Source: Hyphomicrobiales bacterium (GTDB lineage: Bacteria > Pseudomonadota > Alphaproteobacteria > Rhizobiales > Xanthobacteraceae). Taken from it: DNA of 15,733 nt. Below are positions 1 through 15,081 of this stretch, one piece after another. The position numbers and the translations under genes were made by a program. The notes beneath the pieces are model-generated. The model searched no databases, was not told the DNA's origin, and saw only the letters and a list, made by a program, of their open reading frames with translations. The stretch is taken from contig JAFKKQ010000250.1 of the NCBI GenBank assembly GCA_017304505.1, positions 2,859 through 18,591 of the forward strand, in the 5' to 3' direction. Position 1 is the first letter of the stretch. Every line of letters starts with the position of its first letter.

Positions 1-376
1 TGAATTGCTCGACACAGTCGGGCTTTCCGGCCTCGGCGGCCGGCCGGCGCGGCAGCTGTCCGGCGGCGAGCAGCAGCGCCTGGCGCTGGCACGCGCGCTC
101 GCTCGCGACCCGGAGGTTCTGTTCCTCGACGAACCCACGGCAAGCCTCGATCCAGCCGCGACCAAAGCGATCGAGGATGTCGTGAAAGTGGTTGCCGCGC
201 GCGGCATCAAGGTGGCGATGTCGACGCACGATCTCGGCGAGGCCCGCAGGCTTGCCGGAGAAATCGTGCTGATGCATCGCGGCCGGGTGCTGGAAACCGG
301 TTCCGCGGAGGAATTCTTTGCCGGCCCGAAGACCGAAGAAGGCCGGCGCTTCATCGCCGGCGAGCTGCTGGTCTGA
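1..376 (+). CDS. tupC: Tungstate ABC transporter ATP-binding protein TupC, 3' part
   Basis: C-terminal half of an ABC ATPase; the reading frame is open to the left edge, so the Walker A motif lies outside the window. What remains has the signature motif LSGGEQQRLALARAL, Walker B with catalytic Glu (EVLFLDEPTASLDP) and the H-loop (STHD). It would hydrolyse ATP on the cytoplasmic side of an importer. The call to tungstate rests on the neighbour: a TupA-type receptor begins 45 bp downstream on the same strand, and tup operons normally hold a permease (TupB), this ATPase and TupA. The permease is presumably just left of the window. An ATPase of another oxyanion importer (ModC, WtpC) cannot be excluded from this fragment alone. 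Confidence 0.85.
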   Translation, partial: ELLDTVGLSGLGGRPARQLSGGEQQRLALARALARDPEVLFLDEPTASLDPAATKAIEDVVKVVAARGIKVAMSTHDLGEARRLAGEIVLMHRGRVLETGSAEEFFAGPKTEEGRRFIAGELLV

Positions 377-421: not shown

Positions 422-1255
422 ATGAAAACCCGTCGCACCGTCGTCGCATTCGCTGCCGCCGTATTGCTGGCCGGCGTCTCGATGGCATCCGCGCAGGACA
501 AATCGATCGTGGTTGCTTCGACCACGTCGACGCAGGACTCTGGACTGTTCGAATATCTCCTGCCGATCTTCAAGCAGAAGACCGGCATCACAGTGAAGGT
601 CGTGGCGCAGGGCACCGGGCAGGCGCTCGATACGGCGCGGCGCGGCGACGCCGATGTGGTGTTTGTCCACGCCAAGGCGCAGGAGGAGAAATTCCTGGCC
701 GAAGGTCACGGCGTGAAGCGTTATCCGGTGATGTACAACGACTTCGTCGTGATCGGCCCCAAGAGCGATCCCGCCGGCATCAAGGGCATGAAGAGCGTCA
801 CCGATGCCTTCAAGGCGATCAAGGCAAAGCAGGCATCCTTCATCTCGCGCGGCGACCGTTCCGGCACCCACAGCGCCGAGCTCAGGCTCTGGAAAGCCGC
901 CGGCATCGACATCGAGAAGGATAAAGGCCCCTGGTACAAGCCGATCGGCCAGGGCATGGGAGCGGCACTCAACACCGCGGGCGCAAGCAACGCCTACGTG
1001 CTGTCGGACCGCGGCACCTGGATCCACTTCAAGAACAAGGGCGATCTCACCATCCTGGTCGAAGGCGACAAGCGGCTGTTCAATCAGTATGGCGTCATGC
1101 TGGTGAACCCTGCCAAGCACCCGACCGTGAAGAAGGAGCTTGGCCAGACGTTCATCGATTGGCTGGTTTCGCAGGAAGGGCAGAAGGCAATCGCCGGCTA
1201 CAAGATCAACGGCCTGCAGTTGTTCTTCCCGAATGCCAACGATCCGAGTGCATGA
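422..1255 (+). CDS. tupA: Tungstate ABC transporter substrate-binding protein TupA
   Basis: 277-residue periplasmic receptor that captures tungstate and hands it to the TupBC importer. Residues 1-24 form a Sec signal peptide (basic MKTRR, a hydrophobic core, cleavage after MASA). The mature protein opens with the family hallmark TTSTQDSGL (34-42), then AQGTGQAL (63-70) and SRGDRSGTH (143-151), the segments that line the oxyanion pocket in TupA proteins. The start is set by the Shine-Dalgarno GAGGAGAA at about 409-416. The stop codon overlaps the next start as ATGA, so translation of tupA and the downstream modA-type gene is probably coupled. TupA proteins usually prefer tungstate over molybdate strongly; the specificity here is inferred from the family. 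Confidence 0.93.
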   Translation: MKTRRTVVAFAAAVLLAGVSMASAQDKSIVVASTTSTQDSGLFEYLLPIFKQKTGITVKVVAQGTGQALDTARRGDADVVFVHAKAQEEKFLAEGHGVKRYPVMYNDFVVIGPKSDPAGIKGMKSVTDAFKAIKAKQASFISRGDRSGTHSAELRLWKAAGIDIEKDKGPWYKPIGQGMGAALNTAGASNAYVLSDRGTWIHFKNKGDLTILVEGDKRLFNQYGVMLVNPAKHPTVKKELGQTFIDWLVSQEGQKAIAGYKINGLQLFFPNANDPSA

Positions 1256-2428: not shown

Positions 2429-2452
2429 CGCTATATCTTGATAGATATAGCG
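2429..2452. promoter_or_regulatory. Perfect inverted repeat resembling a ModE operator (Mo-box)
   Basis: Arms CGCTATATC (2429-2437) and GATATAGCG (2444-2452) are exact reverse complements separated by the 6 nt TTGATA. AT-rich CG(C/T)TATAT arms about a 6-8 nt spacer are the hallmark of operators bound by the ModE winged helix. The site is 39 bp upstream of ATG 2492, where it could cover the promoter of the DUF2325 gene, and a ModE is encoded 1.5 kb away. The rest of the 213-bp gap (2279-2491) holds a GGGCCGGCCC palindrome at 2358-2367 and no convincing gene. Not a terminator: there is no T-tract. The operator role is inferred. Confidence 0.68.
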
Positions 2453-2491
2453 TCCTTGCGCGATGGCGCTTCAATCCGGCGGGACTTGGGA

Positions 2492-3805
2492 ATGAGTTCG
2501 CTTTCGGGGCATCTGCGCTCCAGCCTCTATGGCCTGCCGCTCGAAGCGCGGACGCCGCCTGCCGTCGCCGAACTGGCGGCGCTCGCGGCAAACAGGCCGC
2601 AGACCGCGCCGATTCAGAAGCCACAAAGCCTCAAGCCGAAAACCGTCAGCCGCCGCTCGAGAATTTGGGAGTTGAACAGCCACCTGCATTGCTCGATCAT
2701 CGGCACCTGCCTTTCGGCGGCCGAGCTTCGCCGCCTGCTGGTGCGGTTGAAGGTGGCGGGCATTGAAACGGCGGATGAGCACGAACTCCACATGCTCGGC
2801 GTCCTCCTGGCGAACCGCCCGGAGGAGGGTGCGAAGCTGCTGCAAAAGACTCTCGACCGGCGCCACCAGGTCACGATCCATCAGTTCGCAAAAGCAAGGG
2901 ATGACGCTTCGATCGCCGCGCTTTGGCGGAAGGCGATCACCGGTGGCGATATCCCGGGCGCCTATTGGGCCGTTCTCACGCACCCCGATTCGTCCGACAG
3001 GCTCGTGCAAAAGGCGTTTGGCGACATCCATATGCTGTCGCATCTCATGGGCGCGACCAACTGCGCCGATCTGCAGCGCATGCGCCGGCTCGAAGATGAA
3101 AACGCGGTGCTGGTGGACAAGCTCGATCGTCAGCAGAAGCAACTGCACGGCGGATTTGTCGAGCGTGACCGCAAGATCGAGCGACTGACGAAGTCGCTGG
3201 CGGACAAGATCCAGCATGACGGCGGTTCCCCTGCGGACCACGGCGGCGATGAGATCATGACGCTCCGGGCGACCATTGCCGATCTGAGCCGACAACTGGC
3301 GAGCGAGGCCGGACGCCGGGAGCGGCTGGAGCAGCGGCAGAAGGCCCTTGAGGAGGCCGACCGCGCACGCCGGGCGGCGGAGGAGGAGCGCGATGCGCTC
3401 CGTCACGAACTTGAAACCATCGAGCGTGGCATCGGCTCGATGATTCCCGACGCGACGGCAGGGAGCATGCCGTCACTTGATCTCAATGGCCTCGCCGTTC
3501 TCTATGTCGGCGGCCGCCTGAGCCAGATTCCGCAGCTCCGCGCGCTGGTCGAGCACGGCGGCGGCGAGTTCCTCCATCACGACGGCGGGATCGAACACGC
3601 GGCGGCGCTGCTGCCCGGCCTGGTCGGCCGCGCCGACGTCACGGTTTTCCCCGTCGATTGCGTCAGTCATAACGCCATGACGTCGGCCAAGCGGGCCTGC
3701 CAGCAGTTGAACAAGCCCTACGTCGCGCTGCGCACATCGAGCCTCACTTGCCTGTTGTCGTCGCTGACGTCCCGCGCCAACACCGCAATGATGGAGACCG
3801 CCTGA
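2492..3805 (+). CDS. DUF2325 domain-containing coiled-coil protein
   Basis: 437-residue soluble protein of unknown biochemical role. Three parts are visible. An N-terminal region carries WELNSHLHCSIIGTCLS (about 60-75), the conserved His-Cys...Cys motif of this family. A long charged stretch (about 195-330) rich in Leu, Glu, Arg and Gln in heptad-like spacing is a likely coiled coil. A C-terminal DUF2325 domain (about 334-437) starts LAVLYVGGRL and contains DCVSHNAM (Cys390) and AKRACQQLNKP (Cys403). The conserved His/Cys residues suggest metal or redox chemistry, but this is inference. The start is ATG 2492 (weak upstream GGGACTTGGG); the frame is open to TTG 2438, but that start would lie inside the inverted repeat. 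It stands alone between mop and modE with the Mo-box-like repeat in its promoter region, suggesting molybdenum-responsive expression. Confidence 0.82.
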   Translation: MSSLSGHLRSSLYGLPLEARTPPAVAELAALAANRPQTAPIQKPQSLKPKTVSRRSRIWELNSHLHCSIIGTCLSAAELRRLLVRLKVAGIETADEHELHMLGVLLANRPEEGAKLLQKTLDRRHQVTIHQFAKARDDASIAALWRKAITGGDIPGAYWAVLTHPDSSDRLVQKAFGDIHMLSHLMGATNCADLQRMRRLEDENAVLVDKLDRQQKQLHGGFVERDRKIERLTKSLADKIQHDGGSPADHGGDEIMTLRATIADLSRQLASEAGRRERLEQRQKALEEADRARRAAEEERDALRHELETIERGIGSMIPDATAGSMPSLDLNGLAVLYVGGRLSQIPQLRALVEHGGGEFLHHDGGIEHAAALLPGLVGRADVTVFPVDCVSHNAMTSAKRACQQLNKPYVALRTSSLTCLLSSLTSRANTAMMETA

Positions 3806-6532: not shown

Positions 6533-6555
6533 CGGGACGTCTGGTGGCTGAGGGC

Positions 6556-7251
6556 ATGAGTGACACGAAAATCAGGGTGATGAGCGCCGGCGCCGTGGAA
6601 GGCCCGGTGCGCGAGTTGGCGTCGGCGTTCGCACGCGACACCGGCCGGGAGGTTGTGCTGACGTTCAACACCGTCGGCGCATTGCGGGATCGTTTCGTCG
6701 GCGGTGAGCAGACCGACGTGATCATCCTATCGTTCCCCGCTATCGAGGCGCTGGAGAAAAACGGACGGCTGGCGGCTGGCAGCCGCACCGACCTGGGCCG
6801 TGCGTCTTGTGGCGTCGCCGTGCGCGACGGCATGCTGATGCCGGATATCTCGACGCTCGAGAGCTTTACCCGCATGCTCAAGAACGCCGGTTCGATCGCC
6901 GCCAACGATCCGGCGCACGGCGGCTCGTCAGGCATTTATCTCGCCGATCTGCTCAAGCGCATGGGGCTCTACGACGAGGTCCAGCCGAAGCTGGTGCTGT
7001 GCAAGACCGGACGCGACTGCGCGCTGACGCTGGTGCGCGGCGAGGCGGAAATCGGCATCACCTTCACCAGCGAATTTATCGCCGTTCCCGGCACGCGTGT
7101 TGTCGGCACGTTTCCCAAGGACATTGCTTACGTGAACGGCTACGCCGGCGCGATCCCCAAGGCCGCGTCGCCCGAACCGGGACAGGTGTTTTTGTCCTAT
7201 CTCACCAGCCCGGCCTCGAAAGAGCGCTTCAAATCGTTCGGGTTGGAGTGA
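6556..7251 (+). CDS. ModA-like substrate-binding protein lacking a signal peptide
   Basis: 231 residues with the type II periplasmic-binding fold seen in ModA proteins: IRVMSAGAVEG near the N-terminus, TFNTVGALRDRFVGGEQTDV, then a hinge region IAANDPAHGGSSG and the C-terminal LTSPASKERFKSFGLE, a classic ModA ending. No signal peptide or membrane anchor is present; the protein starts directly at the first strand, so it should be cytoplasmic. The ligand loops differ from ModA: SAGAVEG replaces AAGSL, and FNTVG replaces the Ser-containing loop. GTG 6544 is an alternative start adding 4 residues, still without a signal. It lies 28 bp upstream of fdhD. It may bind Mo/W oxyanion or a cofactor intermediate inside the cell, or be a degenerate relative. 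Confidence 0.8.
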   Translation: MSDTKIRVMSAGAVEGPVRELASAFARDTGREVVLTFNTVGALRDRFVGGEQTDVIILSFPAIEALEKNGRLAAGSRTDLGRASCGVAVRDGMLMPDISTLESFTRMLKNAGSIAANDPAHGGSSGIYLADLLKRMGLYDEVQPKLVLCKTGRDCALTLVRGEAEIGITFTSEFIAVPGTRVVGTFPKDIAYVNGYAGAIPKAASPEPGQVFLSYLTSPASKERFKSFGLE

Positions 7252-7279: not shown

Positions 7280-8197
7280 ATGCCGGATCATGGCTATATT
7301 GACGTGATGCCTGCCAGAAAGACCAAAAACGGTTACCTGATCCAGCCCGATCCGCACGACCCGCGGCTGACCGAGCGCGTCCGGGGCATCGACCAGACCG
7401 GTGCGAATATCGAAACCGCCGTGACGGTGGAGCGCGCGCTGACGATCTTCCTCAATTCGCAGGAGATCGTCACGGCGATGACGATCGGTGACTATCCCGA
7501 ATATCTCGCCATCGGCTACCTGCTGAACCAGAACATGCTGCTGCCGACCGACGTGGTCACCGGCGTCGATTACGACGAGGACCTGGCGGTGGTGGTCGTT
7601 CGCACCAAGCGCAAGACCAATTACGAGAAGAAGCTGAAGAAGAAGGTGCAGACCTCCGGCTGCGCTCAGGGCACCGTGTTCGGCGACCTGATGGAGGCGC
7701 TTGAAGACATCAAGCTGCCGGATGCCGAGTTGCGCACGTCCTGGCTCTATGCGCTGACCAACACCATCAACACCACGCCCTCGCTTTATCTCGAGGCCGG
7801 CGCGATTCACGGCTGCGTGCTGGCGGAGCAGGATCGCCCGCTGGTCTATATGGAGGATGTCGGTCGCCACAACGCCGTGGACAAGATCGCGGGCTGGATG
7901 TTCAAGCATCGCGTGCGTCCGGACGGCAAGATTTTCTACACCACCGGGCGTCTTACTTCGGAAATGGTGATCAAGACCGTGCGCATGGGTATTCCGATCC
8001 TGGTGTCGCGTTCGGGCTTCACCGCATGGGGCGTAGAGCTTGCGCGCAAGGCGAACCTCACGCTGATCGGCCGCGCTCGCGGCAAGCGCTTCATCGCGTT
8101 GGCCGGCGAGCAGCGCATCGTGTTCGACCAGGACCTCGCCTTCGTCGAGGAGGAGAGCGCCAAGAACCGTCGCAAGGCCGCGGTCCCTGATGACTGA
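7280..8197 (+). CDS. fdhD: Formate dehydrogenase accessory sulfurtransferase FdhD
   Basis: 305 residues. FdhD relays sulfur from the cysteine desulfurase to the bis-MGD cofactor of formate dehydrogenase, in the cytoplasm. Family blocks seen: EYLAIGYLLNQ (74-84), MEDVGRHNAVDK (191-202), TGRLTSEMV, GIPILVSRSGFTAWGVELA, and RGKRFIALAGEQRIVFD. The usual CxxC of the mobile sulfur-carrying loop reads TSGCAQGTV: Cys128 is present, but the second Cys is not. ATG 7280 has AGGAT at 7266-7270; ATG 7307 is possible. mobA overlaps the 3' end by 8 nt, so the two are translated together. No formate dehydrogenase subunit gene is in the window. Confidence 0.92.
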   Translation: MPDHGYIDVMPARKTKNGYLIQPDPHDPRLTERVRGIDQTGANIETAVTVERALTIFLNSQEIVTAMTIGDYPEYLAIGYLLNQNMLLPTDVVTGVDYDEDLAVVVVRTKRKTNYEKKLKKKVQTSGCAQGTVFGDLMEALEDIKLPDAELRTSWLYALTNTINTTPSLYLEAGAIHGCVLAEQDRPLVYMEDVGRHNAVDKIAGWMFKHRVRPDGKIFYTTGRLTSEMVIKTVRMGIPILVSRSGFTAWGVELARKANLTLIGRARGKRFIALAGEQRIVFDQDLAFVEEESAKNRRKAAVPDD

Positions 8198-8828
8198 TAC
8201 GCCGCCGCAGCCGGCGACGCTCGGCCTCATTCTCGCCGGTGGTCTCGCCCGTCGCATGGGCGGCGGCGACAAGCCGCGAACCGCCATCGGCGGCACAACA
8301 ATCCTGTCGCGCGTGCTGGAGCGCATGCGGGCGCAATGCGCGCGTCTCGTGCTCAACGCCAACGGCGATCCGTCACGTTTCGCGGATACCGGCCTGCCGG
8401 TGATCACCGATAACGTGCCGGGTTTCGCCGGACCTCTCGCGGGCGTGTTGGCTGGTCTCGATTGGGCTGCGGCGAATGCGCCGGAATTTGACTATGTTGT
8501 CAGTGTGCCGGGCGATTGCCCGTTCTTGCCGCGCGATCTGGTTGTGCGTTTGCATCGGGCGCGGCGGGAGCAGGGTATGCCGCTCGCCTGCGCGCGCTCG
8601 GGCGAATGGCGGCACCCGGTGGTGGCGATGTGGCCCGTGGGGCTGCGGGCGGATTTGCGCGCGGCGCTGACACAGGAAGGCTTGCGCAAGATCGAGGTCT
8701 GGACCGCGCGGCATGGCGTCGCGCTGGCGAACTGGCCGACGGAGCCGGTCGATCCGTTCTTCAACGTCAACACGCCAGAAGACGCCGCCGCGGCCGAGCG
8801 CCTTGCCGCGCAGCATCCGGATGTTTGA
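8190..8828 (+). CDS. mobA: Molybdenum cofactor guanylyltransferase MobA
   Basis: 212 residues, the usual length. It transfers GMP from GTP to Mo-molybdopterin, giving the guanine-dinucleotide cofactor of DMSO-reductase-family enzymes, which include formate dehydrogenase. Key motifs: GTP-binding loop LAGGLARRMGGGDK (15-28), GPLAG (81-85), metal-binding VPGDCPFLP (106-114), a WRHPVV segment, and the C-terminal FFNVNTPED. The start lies inside fdhD (8-nt overlap, frame +1). The stop is 4 bp from the stop of the opposing moeA, so the two transcripts converge with no room for a spacer terminator. Confidence 0.93.
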   Translation: MTDTPPQPATLGLILAGGLARRMGGGDKPRTAIGGTTILSRVLERMRAQCARLVLNANGDPSRFADTGLPVITDNVPGFAGPLAGVLAGLDWAAANAPEFDYVVSVPGDCPFLPRDLVVRLHRARREQGMPLACARSGEWRHPVVAMWPVGLRADLRAALTQEGLRKIEVWTARHGVALANWPTEPVDPFFNVNTPEDAAAAERLAAQHPDV

Positions 8829-8832
8829 CGCC

Positions 8833-10107
8833 TCAACCCATCAGCGTCGTGTAGGAGAGGAAGCCGACGGTGGTACCCGGCTCGATCACCGTCATGTCCT
8901 CGCGCAATTCGGCAAGTCCGTCGGTTGCGGTCAGCGAAGTGATGACACCTGCGCCTTCTTGCGGATGCTTCACCGCTTCGATAATGCCATCCGGACCGGG
9001 CCGTAGCGCAACACGCACATATTCGCGTCTTCCCGCTTTCTTCTTGTAGGGAAACGCCAGCCGCACCGGCAGCGCGACGGGTGTTTCGGGATTCGCGCCG
9101 GCAAGCCGCAGCAGCAGCGGGCGGACCACGCGAACAAACGTCACGAAGGCCGCCACCGGATTGCCGGGCAGGCCGACGAAGGCCGCGCCAGTGTCAGCGT
9201 TTAGGCCGGGCAGCACGGCCATCGCCACCGGCCGGCCGGGCTTGATCGCGACGCGCCAGAACACCAGCCGGCCGATCGTCTCGACAGCGCTGCGGACGTG
9301 ATCGGCCTCGCCGGTGGAAACGCCGCCGGAGGTCAGCACCAGATCGTGGTCGCGCGCGGCGCCTGCGATGGCCTTGGTGAGCGCGGCGGGGTCGTCCTTG
9401 AGGATGCCGAGGTCGGTCACCGCCGCGCCCAGGCGATCCAGCATGCCGTGCAGCAGGTAGCGGTTGGCGTCGTAAAGCGCTGCGGCGTTGCGCGGCTGGC
9501 CCGGCTCGACGATCTCGTCGCCGGTCGAGAACAGTGCAACCCGCACGCGCCGACACACCTTGAGCGCGGTCATGCCGACCGCGGCCGCCAGCGCCACGTC
9601 CTGCACCGCAAGCCGGCGCCCGGCCGGCAGAACGATGGCTCCGTTGGGTGCGTCCTCGCCGGCGAGCCTGCGATTGGATCCCGATTTAAGCCCCGCCGGT
9701 ACGATGACGGTCGAGTCCTCCGCGCGAACATCCTCTTGCATGAACACAGTGTCGGCGCCGAGCGGCATCGGCGCGCCGGTGAAGATGCGCACCGCTTCGC
9801 CGGCGCCGAGTGGCCGTATCGTGCCGTGGCCGGCGGTCAGGCGTTCGACGACGTTCAGTTTTGTTTCAGAATCTGCGTTCAGGTCGCGATGGCGCACGGC
9901 GTAGCCGTCCACCGCGGAGTTGTCGAACGGCGGCAGGTCGAGCGGTGTGACCAGATCGGCGGCCAGCACCCGCCCGCCGGCGCTGGCAAGCGACACCGTT
10001 TCCACCTCGCGCAGCGGCTGCACACGTTCGGCAATCAGCCGCTCCATGTCGGCGATCGGCAGCAACGGGCCGGAGAACGCGAAGCAATCGTCGGTGAGCT
10101 GCGCCAT
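8833..10107 (-). CDS. moeA: Molybdopterin molybdenumtransferase MoeA (canonical copy)
   Basis: 424 residues. MoeA inserts molybdate into adenylylated molybdopterin. This copy has the full set of family motifs: PPFDNSAVDGYAV (59-71, with the active-site Asp), FTGAPMP (109-115), FSTGDEIVEPGQ (193-204), SGGVSTGEADHV (260-271), AIKPGRP (287-293) and VGLPGNPVAAF (311-321). It ends with the usual C-terminal domain IV (KKKAGRREYVRV). ATG 10107 overlaps the mobB stop as TGATG, implying translational coupling. It is the last gene of a four-gene minus-strand operon and one of three MoeA-related proteins there; this is the copy expected to carry out the standard reaction. Confidence 0.93.
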   Translation of the reverse strand: MAQLTDDCFAFSGPLLPIADMERLIAERVQPLREVETVSLASAGGRVLAADLVTPLDLPPFDNSAVDGYAVRHRDLNADSETKLNVVERLTAGHGTIRPLGAGEAVRIFTGAPMPLGADTVFMQEDVRAEDSTVIVPAGLKSGSNRRLAGEDAPNGAIVLPAGRRLAVQDVALAAAVGMTALKVCRRVRVALFSTGDEIVEPGQPRNAAALYDANRYLLHGMLDRLGAAVTDLGILKDDPAALTKAIAGAARDHDLVLTSGGVSTGEADHVRSAVETIGRLVFWRVAIKPGRPVAMAVLPGLNADTGAAFVGLPGNPVAAFVTFVRVVRPLLLRLAGANPETPVALPVRLAFPYKKKAGRREYVRVALRPGPDGIIEAVKHPQEGAGVITSLTATDGLAELREDMTVIEPGTTVGFLSYTTLMG

Positions 10108-10634
10108 CAGCCGCTCCGCATCGCGGCCGTGGCTGACTCGAGTGGTACGGCGTGTTCGAGCAGCACATCGGCAATGCGCTCGATGTCATTGAGGTCGATC
10201 ACCGGCACGGTGGCCTGCGGTAGCGCGGTGTCGGCGGCGACGGCGACGATCAGCGGGTCGTTGGGATGAAGCAGCGGCTTGCCGTTTTCGGCGCGATGGA
10301 TTTCGAGCTTGGGGAAGGATTCGCGTTTGAAGCCCTCGACCAGGACGAGATCGACCGGCGCGAGCTTTGCCATGAGGCCAGCGAGGTTCCATTCCGGCTC
10401 GTCGCGCAGCTCGTGCAGAATTGCGAAGCGCTTCGACGAACTGACCAGCACCTCCGTCGCGCCGGCGACGCGGTGCATGAAGGAATCCTTGCCGGGCTGG
10501 TCAAGGTCGAAGCCGTGATGCGCATGCTTGAGGGTGGAAACGCGGCAGCCGCGCGCAATCAGGCGCGGCAGCACCTTGGTGATCAGTGTGGTTTTGCCCG
10601 AGCCGCTCCAGCCTGCGAGACCGACGATGCGCAT
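10107..10634 (-). CDS. mobB: Molybdopterin-guanine dinucleotide biosynthesis protein MobB
   Basis: 175 residues from ATG 10634. It is a GTP-binding P-loop protein that assists MobA, though its precise role is not settled. P-loop GWSGSGKTT (8-16), the family block KHAHHGFDLDQPGKDSF (36-52), and LVLVEGFKRESFPKLEIHR (98-114) are textbook MobB. A GTG at 10682 would add 16 residues before the first strand; ATG 10634 matches the family start, although no clear ribosome site precedes it. It overlaps moeA by 1 nt. The 60-bp gap upstream to the fusion gene is the widest in the operon. Confidence 0.92.
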   Translation of the reverse strand: MRIVGLAGWSGSGKTTLITKVLPRLIARGCRVSTLKHAHHGFDLDQPGKDSFMHRVAGATEVLVSSSKRFAILHELRDEPEWNLAGLMAKLAPVDLVLVEGFKRESFPKLEIHRAENGKPLLHPNDPLIVAVAADTALPQATVPVIDLNDIERIADVLLEHAVPLESATAAMRSG

Positions 10635-10694
10635 GAACGGCTTATAGCAGAGTCCGGGCGCGGGCGGGGCTTCGCTCGCCACGGGCGCGGCGGA

Positions 10695-12680
10695 TCAGTT
10701 GCCCGCCGGTTGCATGCCCAGCGCCTGAATGCCCGCTCTCGTTGCGGGATCGGCAAGCGCGGCAAGGAACGCCTGCACCGCGGGCCGGTCGCGCCGCGCA
10801 TCCACCACGATGAAATCGTAATGCTCCGGCGCGAGCGGCAGGAAGCCCAGTCCATACATCCGCGCCACCGGCTCGATGGCGATGCCCCAGTCGGCGCGGC
10901 CCTGGGCGATGGCGGCGGCGACGGCGTTGTGCGAACGCGGCTGGTTGGCGTAGCCCGGCGGCCGCGCGCCGGCGAGAAGCCTGTCCACCAGCACGCGGGT
11001 GCCGGAACCGGCGTTGCGGTTGACCATCAGGCAGGCGGCGTCGACGAGTGCGATGCGTGCCGCGTCATCGGCGCTCCTGCCCTCGAAGCGGGAATCGCCC
11101 GGCCGGAACAGCACACCTTGCATCCGCCGCCAGCCTTCGACCAGCGACAGCCCCGGCGACAACAGGTGCCTGTTGTAGATTCCCGTCGCCGGATCGACGA
11201 GGTGCACCGGCGCGATGTCGCATTGGCCGCGCTCGGCCGCCGCGACGCCGCCCTGGCTGCCGACCGCGATGGTGCGCGCCGAAAATCCGCGTTCGGCCAA
11301 AGCGCCGACCACAACATCCAGTGCGATGTCGTGGCTGCCCATGATGACGATATCGGGCGCGCGGGCTGCGTCGCCGATCAACGTGACATGCGCGAATGTG
11401 CCGGCATCGAGTGCGCTCACCAGCGCGTCGATCTCGATGAAGCCGTCAGCCTGGGAGAAGCTCGTGACCGCGCCCGAGCCTTTGGTCGAAGGAAACGCCA
11501 CTGTGCCGTGCTCGCCGGAGACGAGAGACACCAGCACGAACTCCTTGCGCCCCATCTCCGAGGCGATGCGTTGCGGTACGCGCGCTTCGATGCCGGCCGC
11601 GGCCTCCGGCGGCAGGCCGGCGCGGGCGCGGATCACCGGCGCGACAAAGGCGTGGAAGGTAAAGATCGCCGAGGTCGGAAATCCGGGCAGCACCGCGATC
11701 GGCTTGCCGTCGGCGGCGGCGAGACAGAGCGGCTTGCCGGGCTTGAGCGCCACGCCGTGCACCAGGATGCCGGGCTTGCCGAGTTGCGACACCACGCGAT
11801 GCGAGAGGTCGCCGGCGCCCTTCGATGTACCGCCCGACAGCACCACCATGTCGCATTCGGTGAGCGCACGACGCACCGCGTCTTCGAGCGCGCCGGCATC
11901 GTCGGGAAATGCGCCGAAGGGCACCGGTTCGCCGCCCGCTTCCGCGATGGCCGCGGCGAGGATTGCGCCGTTGGAATCGTAGACGCCGCCCGGCCGCAGC
12001 GGCGCGCCGAGCGCAACCAGTTCGTCGCCGGTGGAAAGCACCGCGACCTTGGGGCGGCGCACCACGTCGATCTCGGCAAGGCCGCACGCAGCCAGCATGC
12101 CGATTTCGCGCGAACCGATGCGCTGGCCCTTGCGCAGCAGCGTTTCGCCGCGCGCGATGTCGGAGCCGGCGTAGGAGATGAATTGGCCGGGCGAGGCGGC
12201 GCGGCGCAGTTCAATGGCCGGGATGCTCTCGATCAGTTCGGTGTGCTCGATCATCACCACCGCGTCGGCGCCGCGCGGGATCACGCCGCCGGTGGCGATG
12301 GTGGTGGCTGTTCCGGGCGGCACCTCGACCTTTGGCGCGTGGCCGCAGGCGATCACCTCGGGATTGAGCACGATCCGCACCGGTGTCGCGTCGGCCGCGC
12401 CCGCGGTGTCGGAGGCGTGCAATGCGAAGCCATCGACATTGGCACGGTCGAACGGCGGCGCGTCGATGGGTGCGGCGAGATCATTTGCCAGTACACGGCC
12501 CAGCGCGGATGCGAGCGGGACGGACTCGCCGGATAAAGGACTGAGATCGAGATGGTGCGCAAAGCGCCGCCGCGCCTCTTCGGCCGAAACCACTTCGAGG
12601 AATTGTTCCTGGCGCGCGGCCTGTCGCACGGCTGCAAGGAGCGTGTGGTCGGTGGTGGGCGTTTGCGGTTTCGCGGTCAT
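10695..12680 (-). CDS. MoeA fused to a C-terminal periplasmic-binding-protein-like domain
   Basis: 661 residues. Residues about 1-435 are MoeA: APPFDRANVDGFAL (74-87), LSTGDELVALG (215-225), YDSNGAI (234-240), SGGTSKGAGD (282-291), ALKPGKP (311-317), LPGFPTSAIF (331-340) and GRKEFVLV. Residues about 443-661 are a binding-protein-like domain (DIVIMGSHDIALDVV at the start, then RNAGSGTRVLVDRL and WGIAIEPVARMYGLGFLPL). This is the 'PBP_like'/LysR-substrate-type domain known from MoeA-PBP fusions in Mo- and W-using microbes, thought to sense or channel metal oxyanion. It has no signal peptide, so it is cytoplasmic. ATG 12680 shares ATGA with the upstream stop; a GTG at 12686 would lie inside the upstream gene. 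Possibly specific for tungsten. Confidence 0.9.
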   Translation of the reverse strand: MTAKPQTPTTDHTLLAAVRQAARQEQFLEVVSAEEARRRFAHHLDLSPLSGESVPLASALGRVLANDLAAPIDAPPFDRANVDGFALHASDTAGAADATPVRIVLNPEVIACGHAPKVEVPPGTATTIATGGVIPRGADAVVMIEHTELIESIPAIELRRAASPGQFISYAGSDIARGETLLRKGQRIGSREIGMLAACGLAEIDVVRRPKVAVLSTGDELVALGAPLRPGGVYDSNGAILAAAIAEAGGEPVPFGAFPDDAGALEDAVRRALTECDMVVLSGGTSKGAGDLSHRVVSQLGKPGILVHGVALKPGKPLCLAAADGKPIAVLPGFPTSAIFTFHAFVAPVIRARAGLPPEAAAGIEARVPQRIASEMGRKEFVLVSLVSGEHGTVAFPSTKGSGAVTSFSQADGFIEIDALVSALDAGTFAHVTLIGDAARAPDIVIMGSHDIALDVVVGALAERGFSARTIAVGSQGGVAAAERGQCDIAPVHLVDPATGIYNRHLLSPGLSLVEGWRRMQGVLFRPGDSRFEGRSADDAARIALVDAACLMVNRNAGSGTRVLVDRLLAGARPPGYANQPRSHNAVAAAIAQGRADWGIAIEPVARMYGLGFLPLAPEHYDFIVVDARRDRPAVQAFLAALADPATRAGIQALGMQPAGN

Positions 12681-13789
12681 GGCCACGGCCTTACCACGAC
12701 ATGGGCTCCGGGCGGGTACCCCTCGCTGCTGGCGGGAACCAGGATCCAGCCTTCGGCGCGGGCCAGCGCCTGCATCGACAGATAGCCGCTGGCGACCGGC
12801 TCGACCTTGCCGAGGCGGCGGCGCACCGGAATGACCTCGGCAAGGCCGAGCGGCGATGTGATCTTCCGTCCCAGTTCGGCCGAGAACGGCTGATCCTCGA
12901 TCAGCCGGAAGGCGAGGCGCGCCAGGAGGCGGCGGCCGACGGTGAGCCAGCCGGCAAGCGCGGCGTCGATCCGCCCCGGCAGCAGCAGCACGGGGCGCGC
13001 GCCGACGAAGCCGAGCGCCGTGGTTTCACCCGGCGCGACGCCGATGCCGTGGAACTGCACGCGGCCAAGCCGTGCCAGCTTCGTCACGCTGTCATCGTTT
13101 CGCCCAGCGCCGGTACCCCCGATGGCAACCACGGCGTCGGCGCTGCCGTCGCTCAGCGCGGCTTCCAGCGCCGCGTTGTCGGTGACAGCAATGCCGCTTT
13201 CGGCCTGGATTGCCTGGGCGATGAACGCGGCCGCGCCCTGAATCACGGCCTCTGCTCGGGTCGGCACCACGCGGACGCGGGGCTGGCGGACCATGACATG
13301 CTCGATGCCCAGTGCGGTTAGAAGCGCCACGTCGAGGTGACGCAGGCGCGCGCCGGCAAGACGCAGCTTGAAGCCCGTGGGTGTGTCGGTATCCGGCAAC
13401 AGAATGCCGTCGCCTGTGGTGACCGCGGCGAGCACGAACACTTGTGCCCCGCGCGTCTCGATCGCCTCGAGCGGTGCCACGGCGTCGGTACCCGGCGGCA
13501 GCGGTGCGCCGGTATCGACGCGGGTCGGCGACGGTGACAGGAGTGCCGGCGCGTAGGCGCTGGCATCGAGCGTCTGCTCGGCGCGTACGGCAAAGCCGTC
13601 GCGCAGCGCCAGGGCCGCTTGCGGGTGGCCGCTTGCCGCGACGGCATCCGCCGCAAGCGTCAGCCCGACCGCCTGCGCCAGCGTTTCCCGTCGCGGTGCG
13701 ACCGGCCCGATCGAAAGATCGAAGCTTGCCAGCACGTCAGCGAGCGGGGTCAGCCGCGCAATCCGCTGGGGTTCGGAATCCGCAACCAT
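12677..13789 (-). CDS. Degenerate MoeA-like protein
   Basis: 370 residues, clearly a relative of MoeA but worn. ALALRDGFAV (59-68) corresponds to SAVDGYAV and keeps the Asp; DTGAPLPPGTDAV (92-104) is intact. The STGDE motif has become PTRAE (176-180: Gly and Asp lost, Glu kept), SGGVSTGEAD has become IGGTGAGRNDD (223-233), and the KPG(K/R)P lysine segment is APGETTALG (252-260), without Lys. LPGNP is LPGRI. The C-terminal domain IV seems present (PLGLAEVIPVRRR...). The lost Lys and GDE glycine/aspartate suggest that it does not catalyse molybdate insertion as standard MoeA does; it may be regulatory or act with the neighbouring fusion. ATG 13789; first gene of the operon. The stop overlaps the next start by ATGA. 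Confidence 0.82.
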   Translation of the reverse strand: MVADSEPQRIARLTPLADVLASFDLSIGPVAPRRETLAQAVGLTLAADAVAASGHPQAALALRDGFAVRAEQTLDASAYAPALLSPSPTRVDTGAPLPPGTDAVAPLEAIETRGAQVFVLAAVTTGDGILLPDTDTPTGFKLRLAGARLRHLDVALLTALGIEHVMVRQPRVRVVPTRAEAVIQGAAAFIAQAIQAESGIAVTDNAALEAALSDGSADAVVAIGGTGAGRNDDSVTKLARLGRVQFHGIGVAPGETTALGFVGARPVLLLPGRIDAALAGWLTVGRRLLARLAFRLIEDQPFSAELGRKITSPLGLAEVIPVRRRLGKVEPVASGYLSMQALARAEGWILVPASSEGYPPGAHVVVRPWP

Positions 13790-13809
13790 GCGGCAAACTT
13801 GACGTGATA

Positions 13810-13824
13810 TGGACAGGGTGTCCA
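13810..13824. promoter_or_regulatory. Inverted repeat between divergent genes
   Basis: TGGACA (13810-13815), GGG, TGTCCA (13819-13824): 6-bp perfect arms with a 3-nt spacer in the 68-bp gap between the degenerate moeA (minus) and the TusA-family gene (plus). A TTGACG at 13799-13804 could be a -35 element, but no clear -10 was found. It could be a shared operator; it lacks the TATAT core of the site at 2429-2452, so ModE is not the obvious ligand. Confidence 0.35.
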
Positions 13825-13857
13825 GTGTCCGCCGATCACGGCAAAGCGATTGTTCCG

Positions 13858-14082
13858 ATGGCCGAATCCAAGATCAACATGCGCGGGTTGAAATGCCCGC
13901 TGCCGGTGCTGAAAACCCGCAAATTGCTGTCCACGATGGCAACGGGCGAGGTTCTGGTGATCGAATGCACCGACCCCTTGGTCACCATCGACATTCCCAA
14001 CCTGATCCGCCAGACTGGCGACACGATCGAGCAGCACAGCAAGAAGGGCCGGGTCCTGACCTTCCGGATTCGCAAATCCTGA
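13858..14082 (+). CDS. TusA/SirA-family sulfur carrier protein
   Basis: 74 residues. The single TusA domain has the active-site CP motif in MRGLKCPLPVLKTRK, with persulfide-carrying Cys13, and the typical C-terminal strand (TFRIRKS). TusA-family proteins carry sulfane sulfur from cysteine desulfurases to tRNA thiolation or to molybdopterin and FdhD-linked cofactor sulfuration. Placement beside a moeA-mobB operon suggests the latter. The ATG gives the family length; a GTG at 13825, preceded by ACAGGG, would add 11 residues. It is divergent from the moeA operon by 68 bp and converges with the Bug-type receptor gene 15 bp downstream. Confidence 0.88.
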   Translation: MAESKINMRGLKCPLPVLKTRKLLSTMATGEVLVIECTDPLVTIDIPNLIRQTGDTIEQHSKKGRVLTFRIRKS

Positions 14083-14097
14083 CGGCGGTCGAACCGG

Positions 14098-15081
14098 CTA
14101 TTTCTTCTCCGCCTTTTTGTCCACAGCAAGCCCGACTTGCTTGACGATCGGGCCCCAGACCTTGCCCTCGCTCTCGATGAACTTGCTGTATTGCTCGGGT
14201 GTCATCGCTTTCGTGAGGAGCCCGTCGTGGCGCATGCGTGCGGCGGTTTTCGGCTCTTTCAATCCGCGAATCACCTCCTCGTTGATCTTCTTGACGAGGT
14301 CCGGCGGCATATTGGCCGGGCCTGCCAGGCCGAACCAGATCGACGCCACGAGTTGCGGGTAGCCCTGCTCCTTGAATGTCGGCAGGTCGGGCCAATCGGG
14401 CAGTCGCTCCTCGGTCGAGACAGCGAGGCCGGTCAGCGTGCCGCCGCGCATCATGGCGGCAGTCGAGGACACGGTTTGCGATGACCAGATGATGTGGCCG
14501 CCGACCAGGTCGTTGAGCGCCTGCGAAGCGCCCTTGTAAGGCACGTGCTCGGTCTTGATCTTGGCCATCTCGGAAAAATTCGCCGCGACCAGATGGCCCA
14601 TGCTGCCGAGTCCAGAGGACGAATAAGTCAGGATGTCCTTCTTGCCGCGCTCGACAAATTCCTTGAGCGTCTTGATCCCGCTCTTTTGCGAATTGACCGA
14701 AAGCACCACCGGCGAGCCGCCGACGAAGGCGATGTTGGTCAGGTCTTTAAGCGGATTGTAATGCACGTCCGTCCGCGTCAGCGGGTGAAGCACCAAGTGT
14801 GAGACGTTGACGATGGCGAGATTGTAGCCGTCGGGCTCCGACTCCATGAGCGAGCGGACACCGATCTGGCCGCCGGCTCCGGATCGGACCTCGACGTAGA
14901 ATTGCTGCTTGAAGGCGGACGAAAGGTGGTCGGCGACGATCCTTGCGAGGATGTCGGCAGTCCCGCCCGCAGCAAACGTGCTGATGACGCGAACCGGCCG
15001 GGTGGGCCAGTCTGCTGCGGTTGCCGGGCAGGAGAGCGCCAGCGTTGCGGTCACGGCCAAGGCCGCGCGAAGATATCTCAT
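14098..15081 (-). CDS. Bug/TctC-family tripartite tricarboxylate transporter receptor
   Basis: 327-residue periplasmic binding protein. Signal peptide MRYLRAALAVTATLALSCPATAA, cleavage before DWP; the mature protein starts WPTRPVRVISTFAAGGTADILAR, then RSGAGGQIG, typical of the Bug family. Members bind small carboxylates or amino-acid-like ligands; the ligand here is unknown. ATG 15081 is fixed by a strong Shine-Dalgarno, GGAGG (15089-15093), 7 nt upstream. The frame is open further upstream but without such a site. The TctA/TctB membrane subunits are not in the window; Bug proteins are often orphan. Divergent from a CoA-transferase, so likely part of a carboxylic acid catabolic unit rather than the Mo cluster. 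Confidence 0.92.
   Translation of the reverse strand: MRYLRAALAVTATLALSCPATAADWPTRPVRVISTFAAGGTADILARIVADHLSSAFKQQFYVEVRSGAGGQIGVRSLMESEPDGYNLAIVNVSHLVLHPLTRTDVHYNPLKDLTNIAFVGGSPVVLSVNSQKSGIKTLKEFVERGKKDILTYSSSGLGSMGHLVAANFSEMAKIKTEHVPYKGASQALNDLVGGHIIWSSQTVSSTAAMMRGGTLTGLAVSTEERLPDWPDLPTFKEQGYPQLVASIWFGLAGPANMPPDLVKKINEEVIRGLKEPKTAARMRHDGLLTKAMTPEQYSKFIESEGKVWGPIVKQVGLAVDKKAEKK

Follow-up and report, generated by a model that had tools for sequence, protein, structure and literature searches.

The window described here is a stretch of 15,733 nucleotides from a Hyphomicrobiales bacterium of the Xanthobacteraceae (assembly GCA_017304505.1, contig JAFKKQ010000250.1, positions 2,859 to 18,591). 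On its minus strand lies an operon of four genes, three of which encode MoeA-like proteins, and the two at its head are the subject of this paper: a worn MoeA-like gene, whose product reads as a catalytically dead pseudo-insertase, and the gene for MoeA-PBP, a MoeA fused to a PBP-like domain. An initial annotation, made from the DNA letters alone, had placed three MoeA-like genes where open reading frames are indeed found (8833-10107, 10695-12686 and 12677-13789, all on the minus strand), and all three products pass the Pfam cut-offs for MoeA_N, MoCF_biosynth and MoeA_C. The operon that it described is present, but a MobB gene between the fusion and the canonical MoeA had been left out; likewise the ATGA overlap of the worn gene and the fusion is as described, while the TGATG overlap is real but joins MobB, and not another MoeA, to the canonical MoeA. 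MoeA is the insertase that places the metal in the molybdenum/tungsten cofactor, and in these soil bacteria the pair is set within a cluster for tungsten uptake. The operon reads as follows.

13789 to 12677, minus strand: worn MoeA-like protein, 370 amino acids, a predicted catalytically dead pseudo-insertase; syntenic with MoeA5 of Methylorubrum extorquens
12680 to 12677, minus strand: ATGA stop/start overlap of the worn gene and the fusion
12680 to 10695, minus strand: MoeA-PBP (PRK14498), a MoeA with an added PF12727 PBP-like domain and an intact set of catalytic residues; in synteny with MoeA3 of M. extorquens
10634 to 10107, minus strand: MobB (Pfam and NCBIfam); the longest reading frame begins at a GTG at 10682, the likely start is the ATG at 10634
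10109 to 10105, minus strand: TGATG overlap joining MobB to the canonical MoeA
10107 to 8833, minus strand: canonical MoeA, syntenic with the tungsten-specific MoeA1 of M. extorquens

Linkage of the worn gene to the MoeA-PBP gene

The fusion scores 150.1 bits against PF12727 (PBP_like) and 754.9 bits against the NCBIfam MoeA-PBP equivalog (PRK14498 / NF011068, cut-off 534). Among 199 genomes sampled in the order it was found in 27 (E 1e-60) and the worn copy in 15 (E 1e-30). In the DNA around the fusions, however, a worn-type gene lies directly upstream in 27 of 27 fusion genomes, the weaker ones having missed the E threshold; in two loci (L065 and L068) the contig end leaves just a piece of it. 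The domain PF12727 itself is too broad as a survey query, most of its strong matches being in open frames of about 300-390 amino acids, shorter than the fusion. The fusion was also present in 9 of 385 genomes of a class sample and 16 of 398 of a phylum sample, which overlap. With 12 new loci from these two samples and the 80 top-scoring named loci from a scan of genomes, 118 fusion loci were compared, some genomes being included twice; the named loci span Xanthobacteraceae, Bradyrhizobium, Methylobacterium, Mesorhizobium, Azospirillum, Aurantimonas, Acetobacteraceae and others.

A MoeA-like gene stands upstream of the fusion in 115 of these 118 loci (114 of the worn type and one betaproteobacterial partner), and the other three end at a contig edge. 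The proposal of the initial annotation that the worn copy and the fusion form a pair is thus upheld, and the worn gene is the constant partner of MoeA-PBP. The two genes are 2.2 kb apart in L077 and 0.4 kb apart in L074. The worn gene ends in ATGA or GTGA in 85 of 114 cases, a count that has no chance level and for which fusion starts were not checked individually. Other neighbours are looser: in the 88 loci of at least 15 kb, the canonical MoeA is found in 66, MobB in 57, MobA in 49 and FdhD in 47. The initial annotation had tied its proposal to the first two MoeA genes being found together, and this holds in part, the canonical copy being within the flanks in those 66 of 88 loci. Correlated distances favour the fusion as the partner of the worn copy (partial r 0.74 vs 0.22), with an interval of the difference that includes zero.

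Selection, active sites and descent of the two chains

The worn copy is a member of the MoeA family in all its parts (MoeA_N 67.0 bits, cut-off 30.8; MoCF_biosynth 33.3, cut-off 26.6; MoeA_C 27.1, cut-off 22.1). A structure prediction for this chain alone, as the initial annotation had suggested, gave a complete four-domain MoeA fold with a predicted local distance difference test score (pLDDT) of 95. Its family comprises 1717 proteins matching at E <=0.001 among 7999 scored; the 120 best homologues listed share at least 68% identity and have 366-387 amino acids, and more distant ones are 30-43% identical. One homologue, P0026, 73% identical to that of the window, is labelled Thermomicrobiales in a public metagenome-assembled genome, probably through a binning error.

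The ratio of non-synonymous to synonymous substitution rates (dN/dS) of the window's worn copy against its homologue in genome G223 is 0.194. In close pairs, from which the window is excluded, the median is 0.245 for the worn copy and 0.110 for the fusion; ratios over all pairs were saturated and were not used. The worn copy is therefore kept by purifying selection, at a dN/dS of about 0.2, and is not a pseudogene, for which the initial annotation had expected a ratio near 1. That the gene is decaying and merely travels with its neighbours is barely conceivable. Its higher ratio than that of the fusion would suit such decay, but its own values are well below 1, 107 distinct long open copies share six invariant columns, the fold of the window's copy is modelled with confidence, and in the 118 loci the gene is never missing beside the fusion except at contig ends. 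The worn copy is probably a working non-catalytic partner.

To compare active sites, 107 distinct worn copies, 116 fusions and 72 canonical copies were aligned to E. coli MoeA, whose numbering is used throughout. The worn rows were drawn from 114 worn-type loci plus the window, leaving out identical copies and those whose match did not begin before query residue 60 and run past residue 340. Residues scored correspond to E. coli crystal variants as given in PDB titles (D59N, T100A/W, R137Q, D142N, E188Q, D228A, K279Q, R350A and S371W). The window's worn copy does carry the lesions noted in the initial annotation (A for K279, and R-A for G186-D187); it also lacks D228, P301, S303 and S371, so that of E188, D228, K279 and S371 only E188 is aligned as E. 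Across the 107 worn copies the residues of an active insertase, which serve the chemistry and the binding of Mg and of the metal oxyanion, are mostly gone (E188 is retained in 6, D228 in 12, K279 in 2 and S371 in 1, together with S303 in 3, T100 in 8 and K282 in none), counts in gapped stretches being alignment-dependent. Retained are G60 in 107, D259 in 100, D59 in 98 and D142 in 90. In domain IV the worn copies have invariants of their own, K338 and E391-G392, in 107 of 107. Arg at 137 is found in 71 of the 107.

The fusions, by the same alignment, have the residues of an active insertase in 116 of 116 (D59, T100, D142, E188, D228, D259, K279, K282, P298, P301 and S303). In sequence, then, the active site of the worn copy is dead and that of the fusion intact. 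The graded decay along the operon proposed in the initial annotation does not hold, since the canonical copy and the fusion both retain the acidic catalytic residues and decay is confined to the worn copy. Not one of the 116 fusions retains R137, K275 or R350, three basic residues of the canonical cleft; the archaeal MoeA 1uz5 likewise lacks all three, and 1xi8 lacks R137 and K275.

These residues bear on two other accounts of the pair. In one, the pair senses or sequesters tungstate or molybdate and serves homeostasis rather than insertion. The PBP_like domain of the fusion does occur in separate HTH_17 proteins beside the cluster (L050:11810-12703 and L061:6602-7492), which are likely metal-oxyanion sensors, but the acidic catalytic residues and the KPGK motif kept in 116 of 116 fusions would be unexpected had insertion been abandoned, and we regard this account as very unlikely. 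In the other, the worn copy carries or chaperones the pterin or the finished tungsten cofactor, for storage or hand-over to MobA or FdhD, and does not belong to MoeA-PBP as a subunit. The worn copies do keep D259 and, in most cases, the GGxGxG loop of domain III, which binds the pterin, while their oxyanion loop is broken, and KPGK is replaced in betaproteobacterial partners too (see below). The strict linkage is nevertheless to MoeA-PBP, and only looser to MobB, MobA and FdhD; a carrier role is accordingly improbable.

Betaproteobacterial partners come from the family of genome G899, whose closest proteins are named Variovorax, Acidovorax and the like. There the fusion was found in 4 of 80 genomes and a partner MoeA in 5 of 80, directly upstream of the fusion in 4 of 4. 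The sole partner seen without a fusion, a partner-type MoeA at 64% identity in G989 (L207:9207-10469), has no MoeA-PBP within the 20 kb fetched. In trees from which the partner of L206 (a frame joined to its neighbour) was left out, the worn copies and the betaproteobacterial partners form one clan, apart from the fusion, the canonical, the moaC-linked and the Thermococcales MoeA. The branch has a support of 100/99 against 33 other rows, and of 99 in a second tree in which four long worn rows were dropped and five Thermococcales proteins replaced 1xi8; the word clan here implies no root, and the worn branches are long. In approximately unbiased (AU) tests the worn clade could be joined to Thermococcales MoeA2 (p-AU 0.389) or to the fusion and 1uz5 (p-AU 0.267), and kinship to archaeal MoeA2 is neither shown nor rejected.

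The betaproteobacterial partner is nearly intact: all four read (three linked to a fusion, and that of G989) have kept E188, D228, D59, T100, D142 and D259, and their KPGK has become RPSS, or RPAA in G989. The loss of E188 and D228 is seen in alphaproteobacterial copies only. Because K282 is lost in 107 of 107 worn copies and K279 in 105 of 107, and both in the four partners, damage to the oxyanion loop is common to the clan, and it would have preceded the loss of E188 and D228 if these residues record the order of events.

Tungsten genes around the pair

The remaining genes that bear on tungsten lie on the plus strand of the window.

2-376, plus strand: fragment of an ABC (ATP-binding cassette) transporter ATPase, cut by the window edge and directly before TupA; TupC by its position and by its homologues beside TupA
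422-1255, plus strand: TupA-like tungstate-binding protein (NF041772 248 bits, below its cut-off of 400 bits)
7280-8197, plus strand: FdhD formate dehydrogenase sulfurtransferase (Pfam and NCBIfam)
8190-8828, plus strand: MobA-like guanylyltransferase (Pfam)
13858-14082, plus strand: TusA-type sulfurtransferase, divergent from the worn gene

Also encoded are ModA-like proteins, a ModE-like helix-turn-helix (HTH) protein, a FecCD permease and an ATPase. In the ModA-like protein at 6544-7251 the binding fold begins at residue 10 of the longest reading frame, which leaves no room for a signal peptide, and the product, encoded beside FdhD, may bind oxyanions in the cytoplasm. Inside the molybdenum/tungsten cluster, between ModA-like and ModE-like HTH genes, is a gene (2438-3805) for a DUF2325 protein of 455 amino acids. 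A consensus scan of 8700-14200 gave no promoter-like sites. A fourth MoeA gene adjoins moaC on contig C195 of the source genome (3.08 Mb, 550 contigs, 79% complete), which also encodes at least one formate dehydrogenase alpha subunit (TIGR01591 735 bits, cut-off 666).

With a threshold of E 1e-40 against NF041772, whose own cut-off is reached by no genome, TupA was found in 102 of the 199 genomes of the order: in 27 of 27 with the fusion and in 75 of 172 without it. These counts support a tie of the pair to tungsten. In eight loci of Methylobacterium and Methylorubrum, two of them from one genome, the order is worn copy, fusion, MobB and canonical MoeA, and in six of the eight it continues with TupC and TupA on the same strand.

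Four consecutive locus tags of M. extorquens AM1, META1p3047-3050, are MoeA5, MoeA3, MobB and MoeA1, and MoeA1, MobB and FdhD are essential for its tungsten formate dehydrogenase 1, W-FDH1 (text of PMC13197769). We equate MoeA5 with the worn copy and MoeA3 with the fusion by synteny, through Methylorubrum relatives and not through the AM1 sequences. Since MoeA1 and MobB are what matters in M. extorquens, the canonical copy would belong to the tungsten branch and not be a separate molybdenum copy; its synteny with MobB and MoeA-PBP holds. R291 and A312 of M. extorquens MoeA1 have been proposed as its tungsten determinants. Their equivalents, R282 and A303, occur in 72 of 72 canonical copies, yet also in other alphaproteobacterial MoeA (L174, L185 and L187, the last being a further Methylobacterium paralogue). 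As a marker of tungsten specificity they are therefore unsupported, and Arg and Ala at these positions may fail to discriminate tungsten from molybdenum.

A candidate tungsten module and its likeness to known systems

An intact MoeA-PBP constantly adjoins a MoeA that is dead but folded and under selection, and a two-chain machine is the simplest reading of this. We tentatively propose, as a bet lying between a minority view and an even one, that MoeA-PBP and the pseudo-insertase, its constant partner, make up an accessory tungsten module. MoeA-PBP would capture tungstate through its PBP domain and perform the insertion, and the worn chain would supply a non-catalytic (structural) half or gate the site. 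The module would support tungsten-cofactor assembly beside MoeA1 and MobB, mainly when tungstate is scarce. The pairing, the intact fusion, the dead worn site, the purifying selection and the tungsten context are shown; the physical complex, the division of labour and the role at low tungstate are our inferences, and the pair may bind or route metal as the initial annotation suggested.

Several observations weigh against this proposal. Single deletions of moeA3 and moeA5 left the activity of the M. extorquens formate dehydrogenase 1 (MeFDH1) at 41+-4 and 40+-2 U/mg, compared with 50+-4 in the wild type, with a tungsten content of 0.33 and 0.37 vs 0.48; the authors class both genes as dispensable, in a medium with 30 uM tungstate (text of PMC13197769). 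TupA in the 75 fusion-less genomes indicates that tungstate uptake does not require the pair. The dN/dS of the worn copy is about twice that of the fusion. We take T100 to lie in domain II, and its retention in just 8 of 107 worn copies is unexpected for, and disfavours, a simple donation of domain II by the worn chain; the fusion's own trans residues D59, T100 and D142 are intact in 116 of 116, so that it may still act as a homodimer. Finally, the betaproteobacterial copies are placed differently in the two trees, the fusions nesting beside Azospirillum-type fusions (98/96) and their partners falling outside all alphaproteobacterial worn copies. Long worn branches may be the cause of this mismatch; with placements that differ, the trees do not show that Betaproteobacteria received the pair in a single joint transfer.

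The nearly silent deletions would also be explained if the pair matured a molybdenum or tungsten enzyme other than formate dehydrogenase 1, its loss then being silent for MeFDH1 at any tungstate level. The source genome offers four PF00384 matches, the three longest being a formate dehydrogenase alpha subunit (L208), a trimethylamine N-oxide/dimethyl sulfoxide (TMAO/DMSO) reductase-type protein (L209) and a formate dehydrogenase-like fragment (L210). We consider such a substrate unlikely: FdhD and MobA each accompany the pair in roughly half of the loci of at least 15 kb, and no other enzyme gene is a constant neighbour, only homologues of window genes having been sought.

A wider form of the proposed module, which we hold to be somewhat unlikely, is that MoeA-PBP is at root a heteromeric tungsten insertase of two different MoeA chains. 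The neighbour would then form a decay series, being intact in archaea (from the literature), little changed except in its oxyanion loop in Betaproteobacteria and without its site in Alphaproteobacteria. If true, this series would be a natural experiment showing that a MoeA dimer needs just one of its two sites and retains the other chain as a regulatory half, and such a non-symmetric MoeA would bear on the working of the dimeric site in gephyrin and Cnx1E. Tungsten cofactor assembly in aerobes is currently being worked out for CO2-reducing formate dehydrogenases, and the published model gives no role to two of the four operon genes. The strict conservation of these two together, an intact gene with a binding-protein domain and a dead one, suggests that the model lacks a conserved step.

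The worn copy and fusion were not found described as a pair in the open-access literature searched. The main text of PMC13197769 treats MoeA3 and MoeA5 only as dispensable paralogues and is without the words 'PBP' or 'pseudo', its sole 'heterodimer' concerning MeFDH1; MoeA5 is given there as the least E. coli-like of five paralogues (26.7%). The MoeA5-MoeA3-MobB-MoeA1 order of AM1 is that of Methylorubrum salsuginis and M. aminovorans (L141 and L146), where TupC and TupA follow, whereas in the window TupA lies 7.6 kb past the canonical MoeA and on the opposite strand. The archaeal MoeA1-PBP is also a fusion; in the text of PMC11733289 its co-occurrence with TupA is 86% (same locus 28%), and a second MoeA is mostly contiguous. 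Both archaeal paralogues are read there as having a conserved active site, while the alphaproteobacterial neighbour is dead. Glp (8bve, NF045515), a repurposed actinobacterial MoeA, likewise combines a MoeA fold with a lost active site and another role. The worn copy itself is not this divisome MoeA, scoring 101.7 bits against the NF045515 cut-off of 475, and unlike Glp it adjoins MoeA-PBP, with no divisome gene among the annotated genes of the window. Compared with canonical MoeA, Cnx1E and the gephyrin E domain, the worn copies mostly lack the equivalents of E188, D228, K279, S303 and S371.

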